Of a stretch of DNA of 46,034 nt, positions 665 to 44,812 are shown one piece after another (the stretch's first letter is position 1; each line of letters starts with the position of its first letter). Location: the NCBI GenBank assembly GCA_037447655.1, contig JBBHKE010001682.1:1-46034 (forward strand). The letters run 5' to 3'. A model generated the notes under the pieces. That model ran no database searches. It saw only the letters and a program-made list of their open reading frames with translations, and was not told where the DNA came from. A program made the translations under genes and the position numbers. Origin of the DNA: Zygnema cylindricum. Its lineage: Eukaryota; Streptophyta; Zygnematophyceae; Zygnematales; Zygnemataceae.

Positions 665-750
665 AAAAGGATATATGTTCCCACCAGGATTTGATCCTAG
701 TACCCAACGGACGTTAAGCTGCCGGTAGCCGGTAGCCTTAAAACGTTCAG
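665..750 (-). other. Antisense tRNA-like cassette in LTR A1
   Basis: Read on the minus strand: an A-box-like block TTAAGGCTACC (about 731-742), a B-box-like GGATCAAATCC (687-697) and a TTTT run (665-668). The same arrangement recurs in the other LTRs of this window, always opposite to the element. Here the A block is the weakest part. Function is inferred. Confidence 0.6.
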
Positions 751-1320
751 TCTAAATGTTACGATACAGAATATAGGGTTTGATATTTAATTAAACTTTA
801 CCACGTAGGATAATTCGTTTAACTGAAACTATTTACGCGATACATTGATCATGTAATGTAAAAGTACGGTTTGCGGTACGGATAAGAAACGAATACCGCG
901 CATTTGTTTCTTTAGCGAAACGAATACCGCGCAGGTATTTATTACGGCTACGATTAAATGGGAATTTGATCGGACGGCCAAAATGAACGCCGAGATCGCG
1001 GAATAGGATTTCGGCGGTTTATGGTCATCGCCACATCGGATGACACGTGGCGAAATTGCGTTGGATCGCGGTATCTCCGGGGATTACGGCACCGAATCCG
1101 GATATGACATGTGTCGACTTTTAGGCCATGTCGTACAATGTCCGTACAAAAAGTACACCGGCAGCTGTACTTTTGTGTACGGAGGTGTAATTTGATTGGC
1201 TCTGTACATCAGTAGATAGAGTCTGTGAGAGAGATAGGACTTAGAAAAATTAGGAGATAGGACCCTCTCTCCCAAAGAGCTTCTGTACAAAAAGGTCAAC
1301 TTTGACCCTCCATAACTTAC

Positions 1321-2852: not shown

Positions 2853-2869
2853 TGAAATTCTATGGGCTC
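2853..2869 (-). repeat. Last 17 bp of the E1 LTR, split off by element B
   Basis: The sequence between the gag relic and B begins TGAAATTCTATGGG and joins without loss to 9084 onward. The rejoined order matches the E2 LTR end at 10525-10545. The final five bases GGCTC (2865-2869) are the left target duplication of B. Confidence 0.8.
2865..2869. repeat. Target site duplication of element B, left copy (GGCTC)
   Basis: GGCTC directly abuts the left LTR terminus (TG at 2870) and is repeated at 9079-9083 directly after the right terminus. Five bp is the normal Ty1/copia duplication length. Confidence 0.92.
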
Positions 2870-2995
2870 TGAAATTCTGTGGTCTCCATTGACCCACAGA
2901 ATGAGCAGCCTATGTAAAGCCTCTAGGATAATATTTGCCCCTTCTACTTTCCCGCTGAATAAGCGCCGCCCAGGCACACAAATATTCAGACCACT

Positions 2996-3066
2996 CTCAC
3001 CCTTGTGAGGACAAGACTCCCCTGAGTCAAACGCAAAAAGAATCACTGAATTTGCTCACCCGAGCA
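2996..3066 (-). other. Conserved hairpin series in R/U5 of LTR B
   Basis: Three stems: TGCTC/GAGCA (3053-3066), GACTC/GAGTC (3015-3028) and CTCAC/GTGAG (2996-3009). In the element sense their loops are GGGT, AGGG and AAGG. A weaker GCC/GGC stem follows at 2969-2979. Stem 3 uses bases different from families A and E but remains paired. Confidence 0.65.
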
Positions 3067-3090
3067 GTAAGTTATGGGTGGTCAAAGATG

Positions 3091-3099
3091 ACCTTTATA
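3091..3099 (-). promoter_or_regulatory. TATA-like box of LTR B
   Basis: On the minus strand CTATAAAGG lies between the GTAC cluster (3206-3253) and the hairpin series (3066 downwards). This is the expected place for a Pol II core promoter, with transcript start near 3060-3066. The identical box in the active 5' LTR is about 5320 bp to the right. Confidence 0.55.
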
Positions 3100-3205
3100 G
3101 TTACAAGCTCTCTTAGAGAGAGAGGTACCTAAATATTACTAAGTCTCGGTCTGCCTACTCACGACTACCTACTATTAAACCCTAGTCCAATAGGAACACT
3201 ATAAA

Positions 3206-3253
3206 GTACAAGAAGGTACAATGGGCGATGTACTTATTGTACAACTATTGTAC
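3206..3253. promoter_or_regulatory. GTAC cluster in U3 of LTR B
   Basis: Five GTAC tetramers start at 3206, 3216, 3230, 3239 and 3250, within 48 bp. The spacing is irregular, which argues against a simple tandem repeat. GTAC is the known core of SBP-domain binding sites in green plants. Regulation here is inferred. Confidence 0.45.
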
Positions 3254-3545
3254 GACAAGGTCTACAAGGTGACACCTGTCATATCGGAAGCCATGGTTCC
3301 TCCTCCCATCTTCTCCGGTATCAAATAATGTGGCGCCACGTGGCACCGCGTGACGCTATATCCGTATGCCGCCAAAAAGCTCACTTCGCGTGGCGGCTAT
3401 AATGCCGGCCGTCCGATCAAAACATATTTTACACGGTTCAGATTCGCGTACATGCAGAAATTGCTCCTTTTGGTTAGTCTGCTGTTAATTAGCTGTTTCG
3501 TTAATGTTTATATATTTATGAAACCCGTCACGTGTATCGTTTCGT

Positions 3546-3623
3546 AACGCCTTAATGGTTAAGGCGTTAGGCTACAAAGAATCTAGAGGTCACGGGTTCA
3601 AACCTAGACCTAGGCATCATTTT
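3546..3623 (+). other. Antisense tRNA-like cassette in LTR B (3' copy)
   Basis: On the plus strand, opposite to the element: A box TGGTTAAGGCG (3556-3566, fits TRGYNNANNNG), B-box-like GGTTCAAACC (3595-3604) and TTTT terminator (3620-3623). The A box is the right half of a perfect hairpin: 10-bp arms AACGCCTTAA (3546-3555) and TTAAGGCGTT (3559-3568) around TGG. The region resembles a degraded Ser/Leu-type tRNA (GGTTAAGGCG D-arm). The T stem pairs imperfectly, so it is unlikely to be a working tRNA. Confidence 0.72.
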
Positions 3624-3759
3624 AGCCAAAATACCCTTAACTGCAAAAACTGCCACTTTCTAAATATGGCGGCAGCCATGGCGCGCCTTTGATCCTTACT
3701 CTCTTTCTTTAAAACAAAACTAAATAGGGAAGTGAACTATTAATTACCTCTTTTCAACA

Positions 3760-3772: not shown

Positions 3773-6700
3773 CTAGTCACTTTTCAATTTTAATCCACAG
3801 TTTTCTCTGCAATAAATCAACTTAGGGGAAGGCACTGCTTTTGTCATCATGTCTGCAATCATTTCTCTATCAGTTTTATGAACTAGTTTAATAATTTTAT
3901 TTTCTACCTTCTCTCTCACAAAGCTTAGTCTAATATCCATATGCTTAGCTTTGAAGTGATGTTTCGGATTAGCTGCAATCGAGATAGCAGCTTGATTATC
4001 ACAAAAAACATTTTGAGTTCCAAACTTCATGAACCCAAGTTCTTCAAGAAGAGATTTAACCCACATTAATTCTTTGGTGGCAGCACAAGAAGCCATGTAT
4101 TCAGCCTCCATAGTGGACTGAGCAACTACTTTTTGTTGCTTGCTACTCCAACAACATGCACCGGATCCAATTTGCAACACATATCCAGTCGTACACCTCC
4201 TTAAAGGCACATCTCCATAACTGGCATCACTCCAAGTGGTGATATCAGTGTGCTCCCCTCCCAAATGCAACCATAACTCCCTTGTCCCCACCAGATACCT
4301 CATCACCCTTTTGGCAGCCTCCCAATCTCTCTTTCTTGGTTCATTTAGATTTCTACTAAGGACACCTACAGCTGCAGCTATATCCGGACGGGTACAGTTC
4401 ATAAAATAAATTAAACTGCCTACAATCTGCCGATAAGGGATATTTTCCATAAATTTTCTTTCTATCTCGTCCATCTCATCATTAATGATGAATATTCCTC
4501 CCTCTTCACTCCCCTCACTCACTTTCTTCAAATCCATGGGAGTAGTACATCCGTTTGCTTTCTCCATTTGAAATTTTTCTAGCATATTACCGATTGCTTC
4601 TTTTTGAGTGAGTCTTATAATTCTATTCCCTCTATCTCTCTCCATCTGAATTCCCAAAATGTACTTTGCTTCTCCAAGATCTTTCATATCAAAACTGCTT
4701 CTAAGATCTCGTTTTAGTTTGTTAATTTTATCTAAGGACTTGCTTAAGACCAACAAATCATCAACATAAATAGCAATAAATATCACTCCATTCTCATCCT
4801 CAAATAAATATATAGAGTGATCTGAACTAATTCTGATATACCCCAAACCGGTCAGAAATTCGTCGAGCTTTATATTCCACTGTCGCGGGGCTTGCTTAAG
4901 CCCATAGAGTGATTTTATCAGTTTGCAAACTTTGTTTTCTTCCCCACTTTCCACGAATCCTTCCGGTTGCCTCATGTAAATTTCTTCTTCCAACTCTCCG
5001 TGCAAAAAGGCAGTTTTAATATCCATCTGGTGGATTTCCATATCCTCCGCTGCGGCTATACTTAAAAGGATTCTAACAGAAGGAAATCTGACTACAGGTG
5101 CAAAGGTTTCTTCGTAGTCTATCCCCTCTTTTTGTGTATAACCTTTTGCAACTAACCTAGCTTTGTACCTCTCAATGGTATTATCCGGGTTTAATTTAAG
5201 TTTAAACACCCACTTACATCCGATCGGTTTTCGGTCCGGTGGACAATCTACCAACTCCCATGTATTGGCTTCCATGATAGAGGCCATTTCTTCATTTATA
5301 GCTGTGATCCACCGGCTACTTTCTGGAGTGTTTATGGCCTCTAAGTATGTTTGAGGTTCATCTGGGTGAGACATCTTTGTGAGTTGGTTATTTACTTGTC
5401 TTTCTTGAAGTCGTTTACTACTTCTTCTTCCCCCTTCAAAATCGGACGCCGGTATGGAAGGCATCCTCGGGTTTCGTTTTGGGAGATTTTCAGCTTCCCT
5501 ATCTTCCAATTCCGGTGTCTCATCAAATTCCTCATCGGTTTCCACTTCGTATTGTGGCGTTGCCTCGGATGTTGTCCTTTCCTCCTTCTCCTTTGTTAAA
5601 TCTGCAGATTTTTCTTTTTCTCCCTCTTCCTTCTCTTCATTTTCAAAGTCAAAGTCAGAAAACTGATCCGTTTCAAATCTGATTTTGACTTCCTTATTAT
5701 ATTTGAATGGATCAATGGACTTCTCTTCATTCATCACCACTATGTGTTTTACCAAAATTATATCTCTCTTTTTCAAGTCATACACTCTGTATCCTTTTGT
5801 GCACTCATCATATCCTACAAGATATCCTGGTTTCCCTCTTCCCTCTAACTTCCATTTAGTCTTATCGGAATCCAAACTGTAGACTTGACTTCCGAACACT
5901 CTCAAACTAGACAAATCAGGCTTTCTTCCTGTCCACCTCTCATACGGAGTTTCCTCCTTATTTGCTGAAGTTAGGACTCTATTTTTGATGAAATTAGCAT
6001 AGTTCATAGACTCAGCCCAAAACTGCAGCCCTATCCTCTTATCACTTAACATACTTCTAGACATATCTCCTAAAGTTCTATTAACTCTTTCTGCTACTCC
6101 GTTTTGTTCCGGATTATAGGGAACAGTTTTCTCATGATGAATTCCTTCTTCTTTAAGATATTCTTCAAAATCCCTTGAGGTGTATTCTTTCCCATTATCA
6201 CTTCTTATCTCTTTTATTGAGGTTTCATGTAGCTTTTCACTCCATACTTTATACTCTTTGAAACATCTTAATACCTCTGACTTATGTCTGAGAAAGTATA
6301 CCTTCGTGTATCTAGACCAATCATCTGTGATAGTTAACATCCATCTCTTCCCCCCATGTGAAGCATACCTAGCAGGTCCCCAAACATCAGTGTGAACTAG
6401 ATCTAATACTTTCTCTCTCCTAAATGTGGTTGCCTTTGGAAATGGAAGTCTATGAATCTTCCCTTGGGCACATCCACTACAATCATCAAAGGTCTCATCA
6501 TCTTCAAAAGTAATACCCTCCACTATTCCCTTTTTCTTCATTTTCTTTAATCTATCTAGATGCACATGCCCCAACCTTTTATGCCAAAGCATCATCTCAC
6601 TTGCACACGAGTAGAGAACACTCTTTTCATTGCAAAGTACAATTCTGAACATTCCTTGACTGCCCTTCTCAGCTATGAAATAAACCTCATTATCAAAGCT

Positions 6701-8209
6701 TGCTGTGAAGATTCCTTTCCTAGTTCCTGTTTCAAACTCCTTTTCATCTAGGACAGCTGTTGAGACTAGGTTCTTCCTAAGTTGTGGAATGTAAAGAACG
6801 TCTGAGAGTGTTACAATTGAGGCCTTTCCATCAACTAGAACCTTCAAGTCAACAGTTCCAACAAGACTTGTGGTTTCTACTCTACCATCTCCGTACTCTA
6901 TCTCAACTGTTGGGATCTTTCTCAGTTTAGTGAACCACCGCTTATCTTTGCACATATGCATTGAAGCCCCTGAGTCTATGATCCACCCATCCTCGGGTGG
7001 ATCCCTCTTACCTCCGAAAGCACACTTTTGTCTCCGTGGAATATCGACATGCTTTTCAGTGTTTTTCGGATTAAGGAGAAGCTCCTCAAGCTCCTCTTCA
7101 GGTTCAGTTTTTTCTTCCACTTCCTCATCAAGAACTTGAGTCAGGAAAGCCTTTTTCTTTCCTCCGTCCTTTGAGGTTCCTTGACCATCTTTCAGTCGAA
7201 GATCTGCAAGTCTGACACAATCTGCCATGTAGTGTCCCGGTTTCTTGCAGAAGTGACATAATCCTCCTCGAGAAGTTCCTCTCCCCTGTCTATCAAATCT
7301 GCCACCTCCTTGTCCTCTTCCACCAAAGTTTCGATAGGGATCTTTCCCTCTCTCCTCATCACGCTTCCGCCAATCAGCTCCTGCAGACAATGCTTGAACA
7401 CTTGGACTCCCTCTCCTAAGCTCTATGGTGCTTTCTTTCACTAAAATCATTCCCACAGTGTCATCCCAATTCCAATTGCTATCTCCTATGTCCTGCAATC
7501 GGTTAATGATATTCTCATACTCTTCAGGTAGTTTCATTATTAGTGTGTTCACTCTTTGTCTCTCAGACCATGAGTTACCTGCACTCTCTAACTCTCCAAA
7601 CAATGCTCCTAAATCATTGCAATAATTATCCATACTTCCTCCCTTATAAGTATAAGCTGCAATCTTATTTTCTGCCAACTGTTGCTGCTGCAATGATCCA
7701 CTCTTATATTTGTTAACTAGTGATATCCAAATCTGAGATGAAGATTTGACATGCATAAGGGGAATGGCAATGCCCTTTGCTACACTTTTAAGAATTAAGA
7801 GCTTAGCAACCTTGTCTTTGTAGTTCCACTTTTCATACTCCGATCTTTCGGTCTGAACCCTTGTCGCCGTTTTTGGTGGTGCTGCTGCCGGTATCGCCTT
7901 CGGCAATGGTGTCACTTGAGTTGCAACTCCTCCCTTTTCTCCTTCCATGACAATCTCCTCTCCTTCCTCATCTTCATCCTCGGTGATGGTGGCAGCTGTT
8001 TTACCAACTGTAGAGGCGGAGGTGCCAGAAAAACGTGTCCCTCCAAACCCAAGTGGAGGTGGGCATCGAATTTGTCCAGACACTATGCCCCATAGATGCT
8101 TCTCAAATAGTTCTCCCTCCATCATCATTTCCCAATAAAGAAAGTCTGATCCATCAAATATGGGCACCCTAGAGGGTGGGCCCATAACCTGAAATTCTGT
8201 GGTCTCCAT
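3773..8209 (-). CDS. Element B Gag-Pol polyprotein (gag, protease, integrase, RT, RNase H)
   Basis: A single 1478-residue frame codes for all replication proteins of a Ty1/copia element. Gag fills about 1-390 and has a zinc knuckle C318-C321-H326-C331. Protease has its catalytic DSGA at 412-415. Integrase follows: H543/H548/C577/C580 zinc finger, then catalytic D608, D671, E707, the canonical D-X62-D-X35-E spacing. Next come the WAES and KPGYLVGY segments, an acidic linker (850-910), reverse transcriptase (Asp in QMDIKTAFL near 1063, active site YVDD 1148-1151) and RNase H (D1328 in TWSDAS, E1368 region, D1404 in FCDNQAA, ADMMTK 1452-1457). Order PR-IN-RT-RH is diagnostic of copia. The chosen ATG (METTEFQ) lies inside the 5' LTR. 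Met9, in the primer-binding site, is an alternative start. There is no separate gag stop, so gag excess must come from another mechanism such as splicing or processing. No stop or missing catalytic residue was found. Confidence 0.96.
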   Translation of the reverse strand: METTEFQVMGPPSRVPIFDGSDFLYWEMMMEGELFEKHLWGIVSGQIRCPPPLGFGGTRFSGTSASTVGKTAATITEDEDEEGEEIVMEGEKGGVATQVTPLPKAIPAAAPPKTATRVQTERSEYEKWNYKDKVAKLLILKSVAKGIAIPLMHVKSSSQIWISLVNKYKSGSLQQQQLAENKIAAYTYKGGSMDNYCNDLGALFGELESAGNSWSERQRVNTLIMKLPEEYENIINRLQDIGDSNWNWDDTVGMILVKESTIELRRGSPSVQALSAGADWRKRDEERGKDPYRNFGGRGQGGGRFDRQGRGTSRGGLCHFCKKPGHYMADCVRLADLRLKDGQGTSKDGGKKKAFLTQVLDEEVEEKTEPEEELEELLLNPKNTEKHVDIPRRQKCAFGGKRDPPEDGWIIDSGASMHMCKDKRWFTKLRKIPTVEIEYGDGRVETTSLVGTVDLKVLVDGKASIVTLSDVLYIPQLRKNLVSTAVLDEKEFETGTRKGIFTASFDNEVYFIAEKGSQGMFRIVLCNEKSVLYSCASEMMLWHKRLGHVHLDRLKKMKKKGIVEGITFEDDETFDDCSGCAQGKIHRLPFPKATTFRREKVLDLVHTDVWGPARYASHGGKRWMLTITDDWSRYTKVYFLRHKSEVLRCFKEYKVWSEKLHETSIKEIRSDNGKEYTSRDFEEYLKEEGIHHEKTVPYNPEQNGVAERVNRTLGDMSRSMLSDKRIGLQFWAESMNYANFIKNRVLTSANKEETPYERWTGRKPDLSSLRVFGSQVYSLDSDKTKWKLEGRGKPGYLVGYDECTKGYRVYDLKKRDIILVKHIVVMNEEKSIDPFKYNKEVKIRFETDQFSDFDFENEEKEEGEKEKSADLTKEKEERTTSEATPQYEVETDEEFDETPELEDREAENLPKRNPRMPSIPASDFEGGRRSSKRLQERQVNNQLTKMSHPDEPQTYLEAINTPESSRWITAINEEMASIMEANTWELVDCPPDRKPIGCKWVFKLKLNPDNTIERYKARLVAKGYTQKEGIDYEETFAPVVRFPSVRILLSIAAAEDMEIHQMDIKTAFLHGELEEEIYMRQPEGFVESGEENKVCKLIKSLYGLKQAPRQWNIKLDEFLTGLGYIRISSDHSIYLFEDENGVIFIAIYVDDLLVLSKSLDKINKLKRDLRSSFDMKDLGEAKYILGIQMERDRGNRIIRLTQKEAIGNMLEKFQMEKANGCTTPMDLKKVSEGSEEGGIFIINDEMDEIERKFMENIPYRQIVGSLIYFMNCTRPDIAAAVGVLSRNLNEPRKRDWEAAKRVMRYLVGTRELWLHLGGEHTDITTWSDASYGDVPLRRCTTGYVLQIGSGACCWSSKQQKVVAQSTMEAEYMASCAATKELMWVKSLLEELGFMKFGTQNVFCDNQAAISIAANPKHHFKAKHMDIRLSFVREKVENKIIKLVHKTDREMIADMMTKAVPSPKLIYCRENCGLKLKSD
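8175..8189 (-). other. Primer-binding site of element B, matching the anticodon arm of initiator tRNA-Met
   Basis: Minus strand GGTTATGGGCCCACC abuts the 5' LTR end. It is complementary to GGUGGGCCCAUAACC of the plant initiator tRNA-Met anticodon arm (from memory) and not to the 3' CCA end. Drosophila copia is the established precedent for priming by a half tRNA cut in the anticodon loop. The site is also translated as V-M-G-P-P of Gag. Confidence 0.8.
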
Positions 8210-9078
8210 TGACCCACAGAATGAGCAGCCTATGTAAAGCCTCTAGGATAATATTTGCCCCTTCTACTTTCCCGCTGAATAAGCGCCGCCCAGGCACACA
8301 AATATTCAGACCACTCTCACCCTTGTGAGGACAAGACTCCCCTGAGTCAAACGCAAAAAGAATCACTGAATTTGCTCACCCGAGCAGTAAGTTATGGGTG
8401 GTCAAAGATGACCTTTATAGTTACAAGCTCTCTTAGAGAGAGAGGTACCTAAATATTACTAAGTCTCGGTCTGCCTACTCACGACTACCTACTATTAAAC
8501 CCTAGTCCAATAGGAACACTATAAAGTACAAGAAGGTACAATGGGCGATGTACTTATTGTACAACTATTGTACGACAAGGTCTACAAGGTGACACCTGTC
8601 ATATCGGAAGCCATGGTTCCTCCTCCCATCTTCTCCGGTATCAAATAATGTGGCGCCACGTGGCACCGCGTGACGCTATATCCGTATGCCGCCAAAAAGC
8701 TCACTTCGCGTGGCGGCTATAATGCCGGCCGTCCGATCAAAACATATTTTACACGGTTCAGATTCGCGTACATGCAGAAATTGCTCCTTTTGGTTAGTCT
8801 GCTGTTAATTAGCTGTTTCGTTAATGTTTATATATTTATGAAACCCGTCACGTGTATCGTTTCGTAACGCCTTAATGGTTAAGGCGTTAGGCTACAAAGA
8901 ATCTAGAGGTCACGGGTTCAAACCTAGACCTAGGCATCATTTTAGCCAAAATCCCTTAACTGCAAAAACTGCCACTTTCTAAATATGGCGGCAGCCATGG
9001 CGCGCCTTTGATCCTTACTCTCTTTCTTTAAAACAAAACTAAATAGGGAAGTGAACTATTAATTACCTCTTTTCAACA
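8190..9078 (-). repeat. Element B 5' LTR (889 bp), the active promoter copy
   Basis: Identical by my reading to 2870-3759 except for one missing base near 8952. It holds the same hairpins, TATA-like box, GTAC cluster and tRNA-like cassette as the 3' copy. The first seven Gag codons (METTEFQ) are in its last 20 bp. It ends in CA/TG termini followed by GGCTC (9079-9083). Confidence 0.93.
8866..8943 (+). other. Antisense tRNA-like cassette in LTR B (5' copy)
   Basis: Same sequence as in the 3' LTR: A box 8876-8886, B-box-like 8915-8924, TTTT 8940-8943, hairpin arms 8866-8875 and 8879-8888. In this copy it lies upstream of the Pol II promoter that would drive the element and points away from the coding region. 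Confidence 0.72.
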
Positions 9079-9445: not shown

Positions 9446-9955
9446 ATGCTCTCTGGGAGAGACGGCTACCTACCCGAAATATTCTAAGTCTTATTCCCTC
9501 TCTACAACCCCTTCTATTAAAGTACGGCGCCAATCACAAGACTGTACCGTACACAAAAGTAGAAGCGTCGGTGTACTTTCTGTACGGCAGCTGTACGACA
9601 TGCGATACAGGTGACACCTGTCACATCCGAGCTTCTTGTCTTGCACTCCGGAAATTCCGCAACCACGTACGATGTCGCCACGTGTCATCCGGAGTGGCAT
9701 CGCCCGAAAACGCCAAGGCGGCCTTTCCGAAATCCCGGCTTGCACCACGGTAGTCAATTCACATCGCCTTTTTATCAGGAACGTCGAAACAAATGTCCGT
9801 AACATTTGTTTCGTGCGACATAAAAGGTACAGCGGGTTCTATGCCAAAGACTCCGTCCTAGTAGTTAAATGGAATCTTTTCCCTATATCTATTCAAATGC
9901 CTATCGTACCCTATATGTCCTAACACTGATCCAAGACTACAGGATAAAGCTATCA

Positions 9956-10018
9956 CCTACCGGTTAATCTAATAGACATTAGGTACCAGGATCAAATCCC
10001 GGAGCCGGTAGTCTTTTT
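9956..10018 (+). other. Antisense tRNA-like cassette in LTR E1
   Basis: Opposite to the element: ACCGGTTAATCTAA block (about 9958-9971), B-box-like GGATCAAATCC (9989-9999) and TTTTT (10014-10018). The flanks CTACCGG and CCGGTAG can pair as a 7-bp acceptor-like stem. The interval between blocks is short for a complete tRNA. Confidence 0.62.
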
Positions 10019-10213
10019 GGAACAGACTAAGGAGTAGCCTATTTTCTGTCATCTTAGACAACATAGGCAGCCATGGTTCTAGCTCTCTCTCCAGTCTTTA
10101 GTGACTACAACAAGTATGGGGACTGGAGAGTGGGGCGAGAAGCAAACTGCCTTTGTTTTAATTCTTCCTTTTATTTTTCCTATTCAGACCTAGAAAATAC
10201 ATAACTTTCAACA

Positions 10214-10891: not shown

Positions 10892-11479
10892 GTAAGTTAT
10901 GAGTGGTCAAAGATGACCTTTTGTACAGGAGCTCTCTCGGAGAGAGGTGGCTACCTACTAAATTTTCTAAGTCCTATCTCTCTCTAAAAACTCTATCTAC
11001 TGACGTACGGCACCAATCACAATACTGTGTTGTACAGAAAAGTATAGGTGCCGGTGTACTTTCTATATGGCCATCGTAGGACATGGCCAAAAAGTCGACA
11101 CATGCCATATTTGGATTTGTTCCCATAATCTCTGGAGTTGCCTCAATCGAATGTGATTGTGCCACGTGTCATTTCACGTGGCGACGACCGAAAACCGCCA
11201 AGACGCCCATTCCGCGATCTCGGCATGTATTGTCGCCGTTCGATCAAGATCGGTTTTTAAATCCAACCGTCGAAAATCAATGCGCAGTATTTGTTTGCTA
11301 TCGAAACAAATGCGCGATATTCATTTAGTGAAGTACCGTACGCCGTACGTGCATTTAAATTGTGTCTATGTTACATGTATGTTCGCGCCGTTAACTGAAT
11401 TAATGTAATTGTACATCTTTAAATACTTATCAAATCCTTTATGTCTCAGCATTCATCTTAGTCAATATGATAAAGCTTA

Positions 11480-11545
11480 CGGCTAGTGGTGATTTGACGG
11501 ACGATAGGTACCAAGATCGAACCCTGGGTTCGTCAAATCCCTTTT
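11480..11545 (+). other. Antisense tRNA-like cassette in LTR E2
   Basis: Opposite to the element: CGGCTAGTGGTG block (about 11480-11491), B-box-like GATCGAACC (11515-11523) and TTTT (11542-11545). It is the most diverged member of the set but keeps the order and the terminator. Confidence 0.5.
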
Positions 11546-11780
11546 GGTAAATCTACCTAGATTCTACTTCCTTTCTCTCTAGGCAACTTAGGCACCTTAG
11601 GCAGCCATGTCTCTAGCTCCCTCTCTAGCCTTAAGTGACTACGACAAGTGTGGGGGTTAGAGAGCGGAGTTAGTGGCAGACCTCCTCCACTTCTTTTCTA
11701 TTTCACCCTAGAAGAATATCCTAAGAAAAACATTATTATCTACACAATATAGACCTAAAAAATACATATATTTCAACATT

Positions 11781-16305: not shown

Positions 16306-16655
16306 GTCCGATCAAAACATATTTTACACGGTTCAGATTCGCGTACATGCAGAAATTGCTCATTTTGGTTAGTCTGCTGTTAATTAGCTGTTTTGTTAAT
16401 GTTTATATATTTATGAAACCCGTCACGTGTATCGTTTCGTAACGCCTTAATGGTTAAGGCGTTAAACTACAAAGAATCTAGAGGTCACAGGTTCAAATCT
16501 AGTCCTAGGCATCATTTTAGCCAAAATACCCTTAACTGCAAAAACTGCCACTTTCTAAATATGGCGGCAGCCATGGCGCGCCTTTGATCCTCACTCTCTT
16601 TCTTTAAAACAAAACTAAAATAGGGAAGTGAACTATTAATTACCTCTTTTCAACA
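16306..16655 (-). repeat. Family-B LTR, U3 half only
   Basis: Nearly identical to 3410-3759 but lacking U5 and R. Its left side breaks 46 bp after the gap, in sequence not found in B. The right terminus (complement of TGTTGAAAAG) is intact and abuts copia C pol at 16656, so a B-type element inserted there. The expected internal part and other LTR are missing, deleted or in the gap. Confidence 0.8.
16441..16518 (+). other. Antisense tRNA-like cassette in the cut B-type LTR
   Basis: A box TGGTTAAGGCG (16451-16461) within the same perfect hairpin, B-box-like GGTTCAAATCT (16490-16500), TTTT (16515-16518). Compared with element B it has a few substitutions (GTTAAACT for GTTAGGCT), but none touches the A box or terminator. 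Confidence 0.7.
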
Positions 16656-18055
16656 GATATAAAGCTCGCTTGGTAGCAAAGGGGTTCACTCTAAAGGAGT
16701 GGATTGACTATGAGGAGACATTTGCTCCAGTTGTTCTTTCCTATTAGTAAGGATTCTCCTCAGTCTAGCAATAATAGAAGATATGGAAATCTTTCAAATG
16801 GATATTAAGATCGCCTTCCTCAATGGTGAGTTAGAGGAAGAAATCATCATGCGGCAACCAAAGCGGTTTGTGGAGGCTGGGGAAGAGAGCAAAGTGTGCA
16901 GACTCATGAAGTCCTTATATGGACTTAAGCAGGCTCCTCGACAGTGGAATGAGAAACTATATGAGTTTCTTAGTGGTCTGGGATATATCCTGATCAGCTT
17001 AGACCATTTATCTATATGTTTGAAGATGAAGATGGTGTGATCTATATTGCAAGTTATGTGGATGATCTGCTCGTGTTAAGTAAGTCTTTGGAAAAGATCT
17101 CAAAGTTAAAGAAAGAACTTAGAAGCAGATTTGACATGAAAGATTTAGGGGAGGCAAGATATATTTTGGGAATTCAAATGGAAAGAGATAGGGGGAAAAA
17201 GATCATTAGTCTCACTCACAAAGAAACAATAGGTAGTATGCTTGAGAAATTCTAGATGGAGGAAGCAAACAGTTGTACCACTCCTATGGACTTGAAGAAA
17301 GTAAGTGATGGGAGTGTAGAAAGAGGAGTGATAATCTTAGATGATCAGATGAGTCCAGAAGAGAGAGAATTTATGAGGACTATTCCTTATAGACAGGTCA
17401 TATGAAGTTTGATAAACTTTATGAACTATACAAACCAGGATATAGCGACAAAAATTGGAGTCCTCAGTAGGAGTCTTAACAATCCTAGGAAGAGAGATTG
17501 GGAGGTAACCAAGAGAGTCATGAGATATCTGGTCTGAACCATAAAGTTATAGTTGCATTTGGGAGGGAAGCACACAGATATCACTACTTGGAGTGATGCC
17601 AGTTATGGGGATGCACTTATGAGAAGATGCATTTCTGGGTATGTGTTGTATGTGGGGGAAGGTGATTGTTGTTGGCGCAGCAAGGAACAAAAGGTGGTTG
17701 CTAAGTCTACTATGGAGGCTGAGTATATGGCCTCTTGTTCTGCTCTGAAAGAACTGATGTGGGTCAAGTCATTGCTGCAAGAACTGGGATATATGAAGGA
17801 GGGAGTGCATGAAGTCTTTTGTGATAATCAAGCTGCAATTTCAATTGGAGCCAATCGAAAGCATCATTTCAAAGCTAAACATATGGACATAAGATTAAGC
17901 TTCGTAAGAGAAAAAGTTGAAAATATAATTTTGAATCTTGTGTATAGACCTGATGAAGAAATGGTGGCTGACATGATGACCAAACCTGTGCCATCTCCCA
18001 AATTAAAATACTGTAGGGAAAAATACAGGTTGAAAGAAAAATTAAAACTAGACTA
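16656..18055 (+). pseudogene. Copia element C: RT and RNase H relic
   Basis: The relic begins mid-RT ([17 protein letters not shown]) where the B-type LTR inserted. It continues with MDIKIAFLNGELEEEI, SLYGLKQAPRQWN, the RT active site YVDDLLVLSKS (near 17055), LGIQMERDRG, PYRQV, TWSDASYGD, STMEAEYMAS, FCDNQAAISI and ADMMTKPVPSPK. Stops are seen after VVLSY (two), at EKF (17253), after RQVI, and in the LV/IKL segment before RNase H, plus a frame change near 17016-17040. Gag, protease and integrase are absent. The last 167 codons (RNase H, 17553-18055) are still open. A polypurine tract AAGGGGAG and the 3' LTR follow. Confidence 0.88.
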
Positions 18056-18069
18056 GAAAATAAGGGGAG

Positions 18070-19064
18070 TGTTGAAAATAACAAAAAATATTTAATATAA
18101 GTTTTTTCTAGGTCTAAAAAGATGAATATAAAAGAGAGCGAAAGCAGTGTGCCTCCTCTCTCCATCCCCCATACTTGTTGTAGTCACTAAAAGGGAGAGA
18201 GAGAATAGTGGAGCCATGGTTGCCTCAGCTCCACTTGTGCAGTACAAGAGTGACCTAAGTCACTTTAACAAAAGGTTGAGTGTGATAGGACTCGAACCTC
18301 CAATCGGTAGAGCATGGCGTAGGCGTTGGCTCTAACTAGTATGTTGTAGAAGTTTGCGAGAGTGTATAGGGTTTGATAAAACTTTAAACAGTGATACGGT
18401 AGCTATTCTGATTAACAAAAATATTAACATAGATACATGGACGAGGTAAATACATTACGGATATAATTCGGCACAAAATAAATGAATCAGACATTTGTTT
18501 CGATAGTCGAGATCAAATACTCAATTCTAAACGGCTCACATCATCGCCGAGATCTCGGAATGGTCACTTTGGCATTTTGTGACGTGGCATGACCTGACCC
18601 CACGTCGAGAGATAACATTTGGTCTTGGGAATTCTGAGGAATGTACGGACAAGTAAAAAGTGGACACGTATCCGTTTAATTGCCTTGTCGTACAAAGGCC
18701 GTACAAAAAGTACATGGGCAGTAGTACTTTCTTCTACTGTATAGTGTTTTGATTTGTTTGTACAGTTAGTAGATAGCGGTTGTGAGAGGGAACTAGGACT
18801 TAGAAAAATCTCGTAGATGGTCTTATCTCTCTTTGAGAGTTTGTATATATTGGCATCTTTGCCACCCTAAAACTTATTGCTTGGTTGGTCGTTTTCATAG
18901 ATTCTTTTTCCTACGGAGTCAAGGGAGTCAAAGATGCAGAGGGGTGCAGTCAGATTGTCAACTTATTTGCTTAGGCAATAGTGGCTGCCATTGAAAGTGG
19001 GTTAGTTAACAACTATCTAGAGGCTTCCTGAATTTTGTAGTCTAATGGAGGTCACAGAATTACA
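18070..19064 (+). repeat. Family-C copia 3' LTR (995 bp)
   Basis: TGTTGAAAATAAC start follows the polypurine tract; ACA end at 19064, before M1-related sequence. It includes the tRNA-like cassette (18270-18340), a GTGACGTGG motif near 18590, GTAC motifs between 18642 and 18735, a TATA-like GTATATAT at about 18843 and a damaged hairpin 2 (GGAGTC/GAGTC no longer paired). It is related to the H LTRs. Confidence 0.85.
18270..18340 (-). other. Antisense tRNA-like cassette in LTR C
   Basis: Minus strand: CTAGTTAGAGCC A block (18328-18339), exact B-box consensus GGTTCGAGTCC (18288-18298) and TTTT (18273-18270). Outside it lie AGTGAC/GTCACT arms (18249-18265), a local palindrome also kept in H2. It is one of the best preserved members. 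Confidence 0.75.
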
Positions 19065-21545: not shown

Positions 21546-21890
21546 GAGAGAAAGAAGCAATTAACAAAGTGATTTGACCCCACTAGGATTTGATCCTGGT
21601 CCCTTCACAATCATCACCTAGAGATAGTTGTCAGCCTTATCCGTTAGGTATTGACAATAGGTTAAATAAGTTGGGTGTGATTTGTATTTAAAGACAGTAC
21701 TGATCCAGATACTCCATTTAACGAATTATAAAACAAAACGACGTTGAATTTAAACGGACGTGATTAATAACAACTTCAGATCGAACGGCTCACAGTGGAG
21801 TTGACGCATCGGAGTGGTTATTTGGCGATTTGTGAGCCAATATCGGCGAATGACACGTGGCAAGCCTTAAGTGGACTGTGAAAATTACAA
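21418..21890 (+). repeat. Truncated copia-type LTR (U3 half)
   Basis: LTR start TGTTGAAAAAG, purine-rich block, AGCCACCATTG, antisense tRNA-like cassette and GAATGACACGTGGC (about 21853-21866). Similarity to LTR architecture ends near 21890, before any GTAC cluster, TATA box or hairpins. Confidence 0.6.
21586..21648 (-). other. Antisense tRNA-like cassette in the truncated LTR
   Basis: Minus strand: CCTAACGGATAAGGCTGA (21632-21648) resembles a plant Arg-tRNA D arm (CCTAATGGATAAGGC), B-box-like GGATCAAATCC (21586-21596), then TGGGGTCA like an acceptor 3' side. Only TTT follows, so the terminator is weak. Confidence 0.62.
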
Positions 21891-22303: not shown

Positions 22304-22786
22304 TGTTAAAATTTGTGTATTTTTTAGGTCTGAATTTATTTTATGTGTTTCTTAGATGGTCTTGTCTATGTCATCCATACTTGTCGTAGTCATTGAAAGA
22401 TAGAGATAACCATGGTTGCCGCCCTGGTCAGAAAGAAACAGGCAGACAAACTAAAAGATGACCAAAATCTTACACCTAACCGGATTTCATACTAAGTCCT
22501 TCAAGATATAAGCCGTAGGACGTAGCCATGCGCCTTATCCCTTAGGTCATGATAAAATGATATACATATGTAGTTTGTTATTTAATTAAAAAGTCACGCG
22601 ATGTCACTTTCACTTCAATAGTCAAAATTGACGAAACGACACATATAGACAATGGCGCTCTCGGTCGCGAATCTAACTGTGTAAATATATGATAGGATGG
22701 ACGTCCTCGCCGCCGCCAAACATGAGTAAATCTTTGGCGGCTTTCAGACATAGCGGGACGCTGTGCCATGTGGCGCCACATCATTG
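22304..22786 (+). repeat. Truncated copia-type LTR (U3 half)
   Basis: TGTTAAAATTTG start, ATTTTTTAGGTCTGAAT and ACTTGTCGTAGTCATTGAAAG blocks and ACCATGGTTGCC match the opening of LTRs A and C. It carries a tRNA-like cassette and GTGGCGCCACAT near 22770, like family B. It stops where the family-F LTR begins, so F probably inserted into it. Confidence 0.55.
22464..22546 (-). other. Antisense tRNA-like cassette in the truncated LTR at 22304
   Basis: Minus strand: ACCTAAGGGATAAGGCG (22531-22546, Arg-tRNA-like D arm), a worn B block GTATGAAATCC (22482-22492) and TTTT (22467-22464). Confidence 0.55.
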
Positions 22787-23659
22787 TGTTGTTATACATC
22801 AACCACTGTAGGTGGAGGAGCAACACTAGTAGTAGAAGTATACATGATACACTCTCAGAAGCTATCAAGAATCCTACCAAAATAGTTGTTTATAAGTGCT
22901 CACCAAATCTTATACAAGCACCCAAACTTCACAAAGCTCTATTTCAATATAGAGCAGCATAAAAACTGAGAACTCCCAAAGTTTCACTACAATTGATGCG
23001 ACAACACTCAAGATATAATACTCAGAAGTTTCCCAAAAACTATCTCCAATTTTCCAACTTAGAATTTTGGATACATAAAAATGTTCTAATTCCTAAGTCG
23101 TATACCAATGCTGTAGCGACAATACAAGTGTACTTGAGAGGTAAGTTAAACAACGAAGCTAACACTAATATTCCAAGCTACCGCTGAGCTATCATTGAGC
23201 TACCACTAAGCTACCACTGTACAATAATCATTACTCAGAATCTATACGAAATAACGTATCAAACATTTTGCGGCTAAGTCCCATGTGATCATCTTATGAA
23301 TCCCGTATGCTGACTAGATTCGTAGCAATGGCAGTTGCTTTGTACTGTACTGAATCACATTAGGATATCCGCGGCTGCGTTGTCCGTACGGACTATATCA
23401 AAGTAATCGTAGCTGCGTTGTTCTTTCTGAATCGCAGGTGCACTCTCTTAACTTCGTCGCACCTGCGTCATCCTGACTGCGTCGCAATTGCCTTGCTACA
23501 TTGTAGCTCCGTTTTCCAAACCCATATGTGATATGTGTATGTGGAAGTAAGTACAATTCCACAATATCTATAATGAGCATTATGTGACGACGCATGTCTT
23601 TGTACATCTCTCTTCTTGTCGTCACACTAATTTATTGAGACTTAAAGTTTTCAAAAATC
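22787..23659 (-). repeat. Family-F copia 3' LTR
   Basis: Right terminus is the complement of TGTTGATTTTTG, next to a polypurine tract AGGGAAG. The left end near 22787 is uncertain. A segment at 23174-23218 (minus GTGGTAGCTTAGTGGTAGC) is shared with the LTR at 45489. GCTGCGTTG/GCGTCGCA-rich sequence lies at 23370-23480. The tRNA-like cassette typical of A to E is not seen in standard form. Confidence 0.6.
23174..23218 (-). repeat. A-box-like short repeats in LTR F
   Basis: Minus strand has four imperfect units of GGTAGCTTAGT; TAGCTTAGTGG fits the Pol III A-box consensus TRGYNNANNNG exactly. The F-type LTR at the right end has the same array at 45867-45904. No B box was found near it. Confidence 0.5.
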
Positions 23660-25940: not shown

Positions 25941-26940
25941 TGTTGAAATTAATGGATCTTTGGAGTATTTTCTAGGTATAAATATGTTAGTATAAAACAA
26001 AAAGAATAGGGCGGACATCCTGCCTCCATCACCTTTTTTAACCCCAATACTGGGTCTAGTCACTAAAGGATGAAGAGAGTGGTTGAGCCATGGGTGCCTT
26101 TGTTCAGCATGAATGACTAAAAAGTGAATTATGTCACTCTCAACAAAAGGTTGAGTCCGGCAGGACTCGAACCTCCGACCGGTAGAGTACGGCGTAGCCG
26201 GTAGCTCTAACCAGTTTGTCGTAGAATTCCGTTAAGTTACATAGGGTTTGAATTGTATTTTATGTTATACGTAGTTTTTGTAACCAATTAACTCATATGT
26301 AAACAAAGGAACATACAAAGAATTAAAGTTTCAGTGCGGACGTCATTTCGCACTAAACAAATGATTCAGACATTTGTTTTGAGGGCCAACATTTAATGTC
26401 GAAATTAATCTGACGGCATAAATCACTGGCGAGATCGTGGAATGATCACTTTGGCGTTTATGGACATGGCATGACCTGGCGCCGCGTGTAAGGATGACAT
26501 TCGATCGCAGAAATTCCGGAGAACATACGGACGAGTGGAAAAGTGACACGAGACCACTTAGTGGCCTTGTCGTACACAGGCCGTACAAAAAGGACATCGA
26601 CTATAGTACATTTCTGTACTTTACAGTCGTGTGATTGGTTCATACCTCACTAGATAGGGGTTGTGAGAGGGGTTCAGGACTTAGGAAAATTTGGTAGGTA
26701 GTCACCTCTCTCCAAGAGAGCTTTGTATAGAATTAGCATTTTTGCCGGCTCATAACTTATGGGTTGGTTTTCATTGATTCTTTTTGCTACGGCCTCATGG
26801 GAGTCCATGCTACACACGGGTGCAGTCAAACTGGCAGTTTGTCTTTTTGGGCAGTAGTGGTTGTGGCTTGAAGTGGGTTAGTTAAAAACAATCTAGAGGC
26901 TTTTTGTATTTTGTAGTCCAATGGAGGACACCGAATTGCA
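25941..26940 (+). repeat. Copia 5' LTR of chimeric element H (H1, 1000 bp)
   Basis: TGTTGAAATTAATGG start, GAATTGCA end immediately before the primer-binding site. It holds a tRNA-like cassette (26145-26213), a GTAC block (26571-26632) and a worn hairpin region near 26788-26816. The gag ATG (26921) is inside it. Left 5 bp tgact (25936-25940) do not match the 5 bp after the other LTR (gagga). Confidence 0.82.
26145..26213 (-). other. Antisense tRNA-like cassette in LTR H1, best preserved
   Basis: Minus strand: CTGGTTAGAGCTAC A block (26201-26213), exact B box GGTTCGAGTCC (26163-26173), a CCGGACTCA 3' part and TTTT (26148-26145). The interval between blocks is about 27 bp, which is short for a tRNA with anticodon arm, but GC-rich and paired (ACCGG/CCGGT). 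Confidence 0.76.
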
Positions 26941-29335: not shown

Positions 29336-29543
29336 TTAGACTAGAAAATAAGGGGAGTGTTGAAATCACTAGATTTAGGGGAAGTATTTTCTAGGTGTTA
29401 ATTAAAAGCACCACCCTTGCCTGCCTCCACCTTCTCTGGTAGCCCCATACTTGTTGTTTGTCACTCAGGAGGGAGGGCAGTGGAGCCATGGCTGACTTAT
29501 CTCCATAGGGAGATCTTAAGAGTGACCTAAGTCACTCTCAACC

Positions 29544-29612
29544 AAAAAGGTTGAGTCTGGCAGGACTCAAACCTCCGACCGGTAGGGCAAGGCGTAGCCG
29601 TTAACCCTTATA
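29544..29612 (-). other. Antisense tRNA-like cassette in LTR H2
   Basis: Minus strand: TAAGGGTTAACGGC block (29601-29611, worn), B box GGTTTGAGTCC (29563-29573, one change from consensus), TTTTT (29548-29544). Adjacent AGTGAC/GTCACT arms (29521-29536) match those of LTR C. Confidence 0.65.
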
Positions 29613-30105
29613 AGTTTGTCGTAGTAGTCCGTTTGGATACATGGGGTTTGATAGCTATTTAAACAAAATATAGGCGACTAATCCAATTAACGGAATTACA
29701 AATAGAATACATAGAAACTAGTTTGAGTTTTAGTTCGCGCAAAACAAATGCATCGGACATTTGTTTTTGAACGGTTGTCGTTTAAAGCCAATTTTGATCC
29801 GTCGGCCCGCACAATCGCCGAGATCTTGAAATGGCCGCCTTAGCGGTTTTCGGTCGTGACATAACCTGGCGACACGTGGCACGATGTCATTGAGAAGAGG
29901 AAATCCTGAAGAGCATGAAGACAAGTCAGAAAGACGTCCACTCCAGGACCTTGTCGTACACAGCCTGTACAGAAAGTACATCGGTCCTAGTACTTTTCTG
30001 TACTGTACAGTCTTTTGATAGGTTCCTTACCTCAGTAGATAGGAGTTGTGAGAGGGTTTAGGACGTAGTAGATTGAGAAGGTAGCCGCCTCTCTCCCAAC
30101 AAGCT

Positions 30106-31454: not shown

Positions 31455-32517
31455 TGAAACTGTGAGACCTCCATAAGTCCTCAGAGTAGGCAGCTCACTT
31501 AAAGCCTCTAGGATAACCCTGACCCCTTTATGTTTCAGCAAGAATAACTGCCACACTGGCAATAAAAAACTCTAACCACCTTCACTCCTATGAAGAGAAT
31601 ACTCCCTTGAGTTGATAGCCAAAAGAATATTTGAATTTGCTCCCCTGAGCAGTAAGTTATGGAGGGTGAAAGTTGACCTTTTGTACAGAAGCTCTTTGGT
31701 AGAGAGGGTCCTATCTACCAATTTTTCGAAGTCCTATCAGTCTCACAAACTCTATCTATTGATGTACGGACCAATCTTATTACTCTTCCGTACAAAAGTA
31801 CACTTGCCAATGTACTTTCTGTACGAATACTGTACGACATAGCCTAAATGTCGACACGTGGTATATCCGGATTTGCTCCTTTAATCACCAAAGATGCCGC
31901 GATCCAATGTCTTTCTGCCACGTGTCATCCGATGTGGAGATGACCACAAACCGCCGAAATCCTCTTCCACGATCTCGGCATTCATTTCGGCCGTCCGATT
32001 AAATACATATTTAATCGTAGCCGTAACAAATACCTGCACGGTTTTTGTTTCGCTATCGAAACAAATGCGCGGTACTTGTTCCTTGTCCGTACCTAAATCC
32101 GTACTTTTACATAACTGGATCTATGTATCCTGTAAGCAGTTGTTATTAAACGAATTATCCTACGTTATTATATTTAAATAAATATCAAACCCTATATCAC
32201 ACAACAATAGTCTTAGACTTAACGGTTAAGACTACCGGCTACCGTCCATCTATCATAGCGTAGGTACCAGGATCAAAACTCGTTTCCGACATCTACCCTT
32301 TTAGTAAATAAACTTATCGATAAATATAAAATACTCTATTTACTGTAAACCACTGGATAGCCTAGGCAATCATGGCTCTAGCTTCCACTCGAACTTCTCA
32401 GTGACTACAACAAGTGTGGGAGTTGGAGAGAGAAGGTAGAGATAGACTCCCTTGGCTTTTTTCTATATTTTAATTTAGAACTAGAAAATACTTAAAAATG
32501 AACCATCAATTTCTACA
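31455..32517 (-). repeat. Family-A copia 3' LTR of element D (1063 bp)
   Basis: TG at 31455 (complement of TTTCA) and the complement of TGTAGAAATT at 32517. It keeps hairpins TGCTC/GAGCA and ACTC/GAGT and CTTCA/TGAAG near 31586-31655, GTAC motifs at 31763-31835, CACGTG near 31854 and 31920, and the tRNA-like cassette. It is inserted in the gypsy integrase relic. Confidence 0.85.
32220..32302 (+). other. Antisense tRNA-like cassette in LTR D
   Basis: Opposite to the element: TAACGGTTAAGACTACCGG (32220-32238), B-box-like GGATCAAAACT (32270-32280), TTTT (32299-32302). Confidence 0.66.
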
Positions 32518-38345: not shown

Positions 38346-39403
38346 TGTAGAAATTAATGGTTCATTTTTAGTATTTTCTAGGTCTAAATAGAAATATAGA
38401 AAGAAGCCGAGGCAGTCTACCTCTAACTTTTCTCTCCAACTCTCAAACTTATCGTAGTCACTAAGAAATTGGAGAGGGAGCTAGAGCCATGGCTACCTAG
38501 GCTATCCAAAGGTTTACGGGAAATTCATATTAATTAGGGGTTTATTTTATCTAAAAGGTATGTGCCGGCCACAGGATTTGATCCTTGTACCTACCGGCCA
38601 GCAGACCGTAAATAGCCGGTTGCCTTAGCCGTTAAGTCTTGGACTAGTGTTACATAGTATATAGTTTGATATTTATTTAAACAGGTATATGTAGGATAAA
38701 TCATTTAACTGTAATTGTTTACGGGATACATAGATCAGGTAATGTATAAGTACGGATTGAGGTACGGACAAGAAAATCAATACCGCGCATTTATTTCATA
38801 AGTGAAACGAATACCACGCATGTATTTATTACGGCTATGATTAAATCCGAATTTAATCGGACGGCCGGAATTAGCGCCGAGATCGCGGAAGAAGATTTCG
38901 GCGGTATGTGGCCATGGCCAAATCGGATGACGCGTGGCGACATTACATTGGATGGTGGAATCTCCGAAGATTATGGCACCGAATCCGGATATGACATCTG
39001 TCGACATTTAGGCCATGTCGTACAATGTCCGTACATAAAGTACACCGGTAACTGTACTTTTGCGTACGGAACTATATCTTGATTGGTTCCGTACATCAGT
39101 AGATAGAGTCTGTGAGAGAGATAGGATTTAGAAAAATTAGGAGATAGGACCCTCTCTCCCAGAGAGCTTCTATACAAAAGGTCAACTTTGACCCTCCATA
39201 ACTTACTGCTCAGGGGAGCAAATTCAGAGATTCATTTTGCTATAGACTCAAAAAAGTTTTACCTTCACAAAAGTGCAAGTGGCGAGAGTTTTTGTCAATC
39301 AAGGTGGCAGTTGTTTTTATTGAAACACGAAGGGGTCAAAGTTATCTTAGAGGCTTCTTGGAAGCTGTCCACTCTAAGGACTTATGGAGGTCTCAGAGTT
39401 TCA
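38346..39403 (+). repeat. Element A2 5' LTR (1058 bp)
   Basis: TGTAGAAATT start, AGAGTTTCA end. It contains the tRNA-like cassette, GTAC motifs from 38749 to 39090, a G-box position mutated to ACGCGTGG (near 38928), and hairpin 1 TGCTC/GAGCA (39209-39222). Hairpin 2 is lost (GACTCAAAAAAGTT). The gag ATG is at 39384. Confidence 0.92.
38553..38637 (-). other. Antisense tRNA-like cassette in the A2 5' LTR
   Basis: Minus strand: CTTAACGGCTAAGGCA A block (38621-38636), B-box-like GGATCAAATCC (38574-38584), TTTT (38556-38553). The T-loop-like ATCAAAT sits between GG and CC. Here the interval between blocks is tRNA-like in length. Confidence 0.7.
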
Positions 39404-43754: not shown

Positions 43755-44812
43755 TGTAGATATTAATGGTCCATTTTTAGTATTTTTTAGGTCTAAATAG
43801 AAATATAGAAAGAAGCCGAGGCAGTCTACCTCTAACTTCTCTCTCCAACTCCCAAACATGTCGTAGTCACTGAGAAATTGGAGAGGGAGCTAGAGCCATG
43901 GCTACCTAGGCTATCCATAGGTTTACTGGAAATTTATATTAGTTAGGAGTTTAATTTATCTAAAAGGTATGTGCCGGCCATAGGAATTGATCCTTGTACC
44001 TACCGGCCGGCAGACACTAAATAGCCGGTAGCCTTAGCCGTTAAGTCTAGGACTAGTGTTACATAGTCTATAGTTTGATATTTATTTAAAGAGGTATATG
44101 TAGGATAAATCATTTAATTGTAATTGTTTACGGGATAGATAGATTCAGTAATGTATAAGTACGGATTGAGGTACAGAAAAAAAATCAATACCGCGCATTT
44201 ATTTCTTAAGTGAAACGAAAACCGCGCATGTATTTATTACGCCTATGATTAAATTCTAATTTAATCGGACGGCCCGAATTAGCGCCGAGATCGCGGAAGA
44301 AGATTTCGGCGGTTTGTGGCCATCGCCACATCGGATGACGCGTGGCGACATTACATTGGATCGTGGAAATATCCAGAGATTATGGCACCGAATCCGGATA
44401 TGACATGTGTCGACATTTAGGCCATGTCGTACAATGTCCGTACATAAAGTACACCGGCAACTGTACTTTTGAGTACGGAACTGTATCTTGATTTGTTCCG
44501 TACATCAGTAGATAGAGTCTGTGAGAGAGATAGGACTTAGAAAAATTAGGAGATAGGACCCTCTCTCCCAGAGAGCTTTTGTACAAAAGGTCAACTTTGA
44601 TCCTCCATAACTTACTGCTCAGGGGAGCAAATTCAGAAATTCATTTTGCTATAGACTCAAAGGAGTCTTACCTTCACAGGGGTGCAGGTGGCGAGATTTT
44701 TTGTCTGTCACGGTGGCAGTTTTTTTTACTGAAACACGAAGGGGTCAGAGTTATCCTAGAGGCTTCTTGGAAGCTGTCCACTCTGAGGACTTATGGAGGT
44801 CTCACAGTTTCA
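43755..44812 (+). repeat. Element A2 3' LTR (1058 bp)
   Basis: TGTAGATATT start after the polypurine tract AAGGGGAG, AGTTTCA end. Unlike the 5' copy it keeps hairpin 2 GACTC/GAGTC with loop AAAG (about 44656-44669). Confidence 0.92.
43962..44046 (-). other. Antisense tRNA-like cassette in the A2 3' LTR
   Basis: Minus strand: CTTAACGGCTAAGGC (44031-44045), B block GGATCAATTCC (43983-43993, one change) and TTTT (43965-43962). Confidence 0.66.

Follow-up and report, generated by a model that had tools for sequence, protein, structure and literature searches.

We found that U3 in the LTRs of a single large clade of copia elements contains a short cassette that has a recurrent place in the LTR, lies antisense to its element and consists of an A-box-like block, a B box and a downstream T run, with clear constraint on the last two. 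Judged from sequence comparison, this cassette could be a maintained, backward-facing type-2 (tRNA-gene-like) Pol III unit, a reading to which we give an even chance. The window, i.e. the whole stretch of DNA of 46,034 nt that was analysed, is a single contig from a 352.8-Mb genome, and all genome-wide counts given below refer to that genome. The host is probably a zygnematophyte alga: next to one of its tRNA genes lies a piece of ribosomal protein L4 whose top match, 85% identical, is labelled Mesen1, which we read as Mesotaenium endlicherianum.

Cassettes and copia elements of the window

Most of the window is made up of nested copia elements, with one insertion into an LTR (9079) and another adjoining pol (16656). 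The LTRs at 2869-3759 and 8189-9078 measure 890-891 nt each, are 99.9% identical and form the pair of the most complete element, which carries the cassette on both sides. Its open frame of 1,489 codons was counted from stop to stop, and the first codons lie within the end of the 5' LTR. The part of this frame at 3776-4801, which covers reverse transcriptase, matches Pfam RVT_2; it is one of the three window fragments given, the other two (42845-43738 and 17553-18053) matching no Pfam family. After scoring of 7,998 candidates, the best five of 57 protein matches to the frame were 32-36% identical over 72-91%. Open frames of 1,489 codons are also present in several of 118 scored relatives of the window element, and in a second family, frames of 1,454 codons were seen in several of the 132 relatives that were scored; the LTR L085, located beside a member of this second family (G000:C23:54542-55435), holds the cassette. 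Frames were examined for these two families rather than cluster by cluster. In these elements a polypurine tract adjoins an LTR that starts with TG, as is expected of Ty1/copia. The features of the window are as follows.

2869 to 3759, minus strand: 3' LTR of the most complete copia element, from LTR comparison, with its minus-strand start at 3759
8189 to 9078, minus strand: 5' LTR of the most complete copia element, from LTR comparison
3773 to 8242, minus strand: open frame of 1,489 codons, stop to stop, of the copia element with the cassette in both LTRs
3546 to 3623, plus strand: cassette in the 3' LTR of the most complete element, its A/D-arm-like block starting at 3546; as this LTR starts at 3759 on the minus strand, the cassette is antisense
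3595 to 3605, plus strand: B box GGTTCAAACCT of the cassette at 3546
3620 to 3623, plus strand: TTTT of the cassette at 3546
8866 to 8943, plus strand: cassette in the 5' LTR of the most complete element (LTR pair 99.9% identical)
16436 to 16521, plus strand: cassette; the LTR fragment that holds it (16306-16655) belongs to the family of the most complete element
671 to 760, minus strand: cassette with B box GGATCAAATCC and a T run just past the aligned end; LTR start at 449, plus strand
9932 to 10030, plus strand: cassette with GGATCAAATCC and TTTTT; LTR on the minus strand
11456 to 11560, plus strand: cassette with AGATCGAACCC and TTTT; LTR on the minus strand
18266 to 18345, minus strand: cassette with GGTTCGAGTCC and TTTT; LTR start near 18070, plus strand
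21568 to 21655, minus strand: cassette with GGATCAAATCC and no run of four T; degraded LTR, orientation from one weak LTR match
22455 to 22550, minus strand: degenerate cassette with the B-like GTATGAAATCC and TTTT; degraded LTR, orientation from four weaker LTR matches
26142 to 26220, minus strand: cassette with GGTTCGAGTCC and TTTT; LTR at 25941-26940, plus strand
29540 to 29625, minus strand: cassette with GGTTTGAGTCC and TTTTT; LTR start at 29358, plus strand
32207 to 32310, plus strand: cassette with GGATCAAAACT and TTTT; LTR start at 32517, minus strand
38545 to 38645, minus strand: cassette with GGATCAAATCC and TTTT; LTR start at 38346, plus strand
43954 to 44054, minus strand: cassette with GGATCAATTCC and TTTT; LTR start at 43755, plus strand

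All 14 cassettes named in a preliminary description of this DNA are present, and all of them align to one another. As that description had it, a run of at least four T follows the B box in 13 of the 14, the exception being the copy at 21586, and each of the 14 is antisense to its LTR, judged by matches to LTR starts elsewhere in the genome. These matches are strong for 12 cassettes; for the copies at 21586 (one match) and 22464 (four matches) they are weaker, and they adjoin the cassette without covering it. Near 8866, two of 13 LTR matches within 400 nt run in the opposite direction, and the best match over the cassette is on the minus strand. A position upstream of a GTAC-rich block, also claimed at the outset, was confirmed for the six LTRs that hold this repeat (family D10). 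The statement that the LTR families share little else had to be given up: they form one clade and have other conserved U3 blocks in common. Throughout the window, the strict core of the B box (G[AT]TC[AG]A..C) occurs 19 times on both strands, with about 22 expected (2 x 46034/4096). Since this is close to chance, the count is no evidence for the cassette; its fixed place in the LTR is. One divergent copia element on the minus strand, its LTR starting near 23660, served as the single outgroup; between 22300 and 26000, neither strand contains a strict B core.

Three side observations concern the elements of the window. The copia family represented at 42845-43738 has 131 scored copies besides the window's own, which are 94-95% identical there; several have 1,454-codon open frames, and the family has probably expanded recently. 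A short tandem run of A-box-like units (GTGGTAGCTTAGTGGTAGCTCAATGATAGCTCAGCGGTAGC) lies in sense orientation at 23173-23222 on the minus strand, apparently inside a more distant copia LTR, with an 81% match at 45840-45901 on the plus strand. The internal region after the LTR starts with GTTATGGGCCCACCC or a near variant (window 8150-8190, minus strand, and 39404-39440, plus strand), and we take this start to be complementary to a stretch of the tRNA-Met anticodon loop. Priming by half-tRNAs is a feature of Drosophila copia and of Ty5.

Box positions in LTRs sampled blind to the cassette

A polypurine tract followed by the LTR start, AAGGGGAG then TGTNGA, is found clade-wide and occurs 5,859 times in the genome, versus 38 times for the reversed string. 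LTRs were chosen by this tract and start alone, blind to the cassette. The sample comprises 80 LTRs from the first 100 places listed of the 5,859 and represents the first contigs and exact tract matches only; at 80% identity over 300 nt it falls into 32 clusters, which are related by descent and so are not independent of one another.

Read antisense, the strict B core is located at LTR positions 155-265 in 58 of the 80 LTRs and 24 of the 32 clusters; in sense direction it was found there in none of the 80, and dinucleotide shuffles gave a mean of 1.9 and a maximum of 6 of 80. We also searched with a matrix derived from seven distinct B-box sequences, all taken from tRNA genes of this genome. 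The best antisense site of this matrix fell at 155-245 in 66 of 80 LTRs, compared to 13 of 80 on the sense strand and a uniform expectation of 12.3, and its best score exceeded the 95% point of shuffles in 36 of 80 LTRs antisense and in none of 80 sense. Four T follow no more than 36 nt past the B box in 75 of the 80 LTRs (control windows: fractions of 0.21 and 0.18), and the strict core together with such a T run was found antisense in 57 of 80, sense in 0 of 80 and, after shuffling, in 2.1 of 80. Genome-wide, the exact GGATCAAATCC followed after 8-18 nt by four T occurs 5,841 times, versus 63 times for the backward pattern, where the higher figure counts some sites twice via two T positions and refers to matches as such, their location in an LTR not being established site by site. 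Where the strict core is absent at the aligned site (23 of 80 LTRs), mostly one or two changes account for this; in L075, one of these 23, a strict core lies one base off the alignment.

Type-2 Pol III genes have an A box (consensus TRGYNNARNNGG) upstream of a B box (consensus GGTTCRANNCC), and of their signals both the B box and the downstream T run are found in the cassette. The spacing in antisense direction is regular: a TATA-like block lies 41-42 nt (10th to 90th percentile) before T8 of the A box, the B box follows the GG of the A box at a median of 46 nt, and the four T follow the B box at a median of 17 nt. The A-box-like block of the preliminary description does exist, yet it turned out to be the weakest part of the cassette, with the B box and T run being firmer. 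At least six of eight canonical A-box positions are found in a cluster-weighted 0.90 of LTRs, compared to 0.52 of downstream windows and 0.50 of shuffles; when only the aligned site is considered, a fraction of 0.52 reaches six and the mean is 5.26 of 8. As an observation apart from the cassette, a second antisense site, CGATCAAAAC or CGTTCRAAAC, recurs at about LTR position 340-550 in several clusters (sample L050-L129).

Constraint on the boxes and competing readings

Rates of change were expressed as parsimony changes per site per sequence on a tree computed from columns outside the cassette, using 79 LTRs; L099 was omitted because its cassette region could not be aligned. The B box changes at 0.075 and the T run at 0.044, compared to 0.15-0.17 in the adjoining columns, while the A block is moderately conserved (0.113) and the TATA-like block has a rate of 0.091. 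Within a B box, the positions important for TFIIIC are G53, T55, C56, A58 and C61. These five positions (the B core) average 0.038 and the remaining six 0.105; B core and T run thus change roughly four times more slowly than their surroundings. In 20,000 draws, no random set of five neighbourhood columns matched the B-core value, and 0.01% of random eleven-column sets matched that of the whole B box. The column frequencies are 98% for T55, 97% for T60, 94% for A58, 92% for G53 and 89% each for C56 and C61; a purine (A or G) occupies position 57 in 97%, A or T occupies position 54 in 95%, and position 59 is free. All of these columns behave as a B box predicts except for T60, which is more fixed than expected. 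It had been proposed at the outset that boxes no more conserved than the neighbouring U3 would speak against the cassette. For the B box and T run this is not the case, since 0.075 and 0.044 lie well below the 0.15-0.17 of their neighbours; the A block stands out only moderately.

A conserved B box could also serve TFIIIC alone, as an insulator or chromatin anchor of the extra-TFIIIC (ETC) type with little or no Pol III transcription. Such a site would fit to a B box that is more conserved than the A block (0.075 versus 0.113), to the weak canonical A box and to the lack of a cloverleaf, which was seen in none of 12 folded cassettes. TFIIIC binding by itself, however, needs neither the T run, which is present in 75 of 80 LTRs and changes at 0.044 per site, nor a TATA-like block that precedes the A block by a fixed interval, and we regard a pure TFIIIC site as somewhat unlikely.

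Constraint in U3 goes beyond the cassette. Comparably conserved are CCATGGC (0.065), the LTR tip (0.066) and columns 297-360 (0.088), and the B-box window ranks 52nd of 424 when counted from zero. The cassette is hence one among several constrained U3 blocks and not the sole one. As other blocks are equally conserved, the cassette might act on the sense strand, either through sites for Pol II regulators or as a hairpin at the 3' end of the genomic RNA, with the likeness to a B box and T run being coincidental. Among 31 cluster representatives, the T-stem columns pair in 78% of cells versus 68% with shuffled partners and the outer stem in 67% versus 58%, figures that lean on the alignment and do not tell which strand is the RNA. 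A hairpin is strand-symmetric in any case, and the counts of G-U versus A-C (14 versus 8 and 22 versus 25) do not tell the strands apart. T60, moreover, varies as little as the critical positions do. A further point comes from the real tRNA genes of this genome: in only six of 18 unique ones do four T lie no more than 36 nt past the B box, in eight of 18 the 60 nt of flank that were read contain no such run, and the distances are scattered. A nearby T run is hence no rule even among true tRNA genes, which counts against the argument from the T run. On the other side, the variable positions of the B box are those of a tRNA B box (W54, R57 and a free position 59), a T run is what the Pol III reading predicts and was found in 75 of 80 LTRs, and the site was picked out by a matrix derived from real tRNA genes. 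We therefore consider a role confined to the sense strand unlikely.

How far does the likeness to a tRNA gene extend? ARAGORN in its bacterial setting detected no tRNA in the window, and Rfam yielded no match there at gathering score. When 32 cluster representatives were aligned to seven tRNA types of the genome, the mean whole-tRNA score was 27.5 antisense and 26.4 sense, with shuffles at 23.9. Eight of the 32 representatives scored above all 20 of their own shuffles, compared to five of 32 on the sense strand; L082, L089 and L124 exceeded their own shuffles by 4 to 9 points. When the 18 unique tRNAs of the genome were searched with a profile of the LTR A block, the D-arm was located in only four (three tRNA-Arg and one tRNA-Phe), and in the remaining 14 the best match lies elsewhere or is weaker than on the other strand. 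Identity with a tRNA in the fuller sense was thus rejected: there is no model match in the window, no cloverleaf among the 12 cassettes folded and little similarity to a whole tRNA. From the tRNA-like unit proposed earlier, the antisense Pol III signals in the copia U3 hold across clusters, and the full tRNA does not. As a separate observation, ARAGORN reports a tRNA with anticodon CTA (labelled Pyl) at positions 2261-2332 of L019, which otherwise resembles the tRNA-Lys of the genome and is probably a suppressor-type or decayed tRNA-Lys copy.

The remaining similarity could mean that a tRNA or SINE was once inserted into an ancestral LTR and has been carried along as a functionless fossil. The A region does resemble the D-arm of tRNA-Arg(TCT), scoring 10.2 versus shuffled means of 1.8-2.8, though a chance match on the other strand of the tRNA-Cys region reaches 11.6; likewise, the eight representatives that beat all of their shuffles have to be seen against five on the sense strand. 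A passenger would decay evenly, and the slow change of B core and T run, at some 25% of the surrounding rate, makes a mere fossil very improbable. That the cassette attracts copia insertions to Pol III chromatin and so causes the nesting of LTRs in the window, for which the integration of Ty3 at Pol III genes (PMC8632968) offers a precedent, is hardly credible, as an insertion also adjoins pol (16656) besides the one in an LTR (9079) and nesting will arise by chance wherever copia elements are abundant. For the Pol III unit itself, the six of 18 tRNA genes with nearby T and the chance match of 11.6 have lowered our confidence slightly.

A possible function and comparison with known systems

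Why should a retrotransposon keep a backward-facing Pol III unit in its own LTR? If the cassette is such a unit, TFIIIC would bind the A and B blocks and TFIIIB would be placed near the TATA-like block, and Pol III would then produce an RNA of about 95 nt, antisense to U3 and ending at the T run. With less confidence, we propose that the most likely benefit falls to the LTR itself: sitting just upstream of the sense promoter, a bound Pol III complex could stop read-through out of neighbouring or enclosing elements and hold this promoter open, an advantage where copia elements are nested in one another. The sense RNA, which crosses the U3 of the 3' LTR, may be a further target of the short antisense U3 RNA. 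Taken further, we tentatively suggest that an autonomous copia clade runs two polymerases per LTR, Pol II forward for its genome and Pol III backward from a maintained U3 unit, so that an antisense U3 RNA or a standing complex would control the element's own expression or copy number; this wider proposal is perhaps true and rather more doubtful than the unit as such.

MIR repeats are tRNA-derived. A Pol III-occupied MIR antisense to the Pol II gene Polr3e is described as causing transcriptional interference (PMC5358760); unlike the cassette, it is a single mammalian host locus and not part of a mobile element's own LTR. The preliminary description was unable to place a tRNA-like unit antisense to a copia element. 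For a tRNA-like unit in LTRs, a precedent does exist in Helenus/TRIMp3 (Kojima 2024, PMC10886601), though in non-autonomous elements: these are miniatures of 311-1263 bp whose LTRs have a tRNA-gene-like A box and B box, with conservation centred on the boxes and a tRNA function being unlikely. Some fungal Helenus elements have links to copia and use tRNA anticodon loops for priming, and the only plant family given is from Selaginella. According to the argument of that paper, autonomous partners need a promoter for Pol II, and long stretches of LTR common to them and TRIMp3 are improbable. The LTRs in Repbase that resemble part of a tRNA are said there to be "not a few", with only miniatures among them described, so that unreported autonomous cases may exist; the parts of the paper that were searched contain no statement on the orientation of the unit. 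The copia LTRs analysed here share the tRNA-type boxes with Helenus/TRIMp3 (B box present, A box weak), but at least one family differs in having its own gag-pol frame (LTRs of 890-891 nt, 1,489 codons).

Cassandra elements keep a Pol III promoter, that of 5S rRNA, in plant LTRs; they are non-autonomous, and Pol III is the promoter of the element itself, according to the passages of PMC10853983 drawn on here. Unlike in Cassandra, 5S rRNA is absent here, the window giving no Rfam match at gathering score. In bovine foamy virus, the non-coding U3 of an autonomous retroelement harbours a Pol III miRNA cassette, and such foamy-virus cassettes yield miRNAs in animals, some from dumbbell-shaped precursors (PMC7693620). 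The copia cassette is similar in being a Pol III-type unit in the U3 of an autonomous retroelement; the orientation of the foamy-virus cassettes is not stated in the parts of that source used here. Among the matches listed from the open-licence PMC literature, no report describes an autonomous LTR retrotransposon that carries a Pol III unit in antisense.

In the papers considered here, Pol III promoters in LTRs are described from miniature non-autonomous elements, which are thought to make their own RNA with them, and from foamy viruses. New here are the autonomous copia host, the antisense orientation and the retention across the families of a clade. If our reading is true, the antisense unit represents a different use of Pol III, namely as a self-regulating or insulating device of the element, and binding of the thousands of matches to B box plus T run would give the host TFIIIC sites in the thousands. 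The case cautions against regarding B boxes in LTRs as passengers only.
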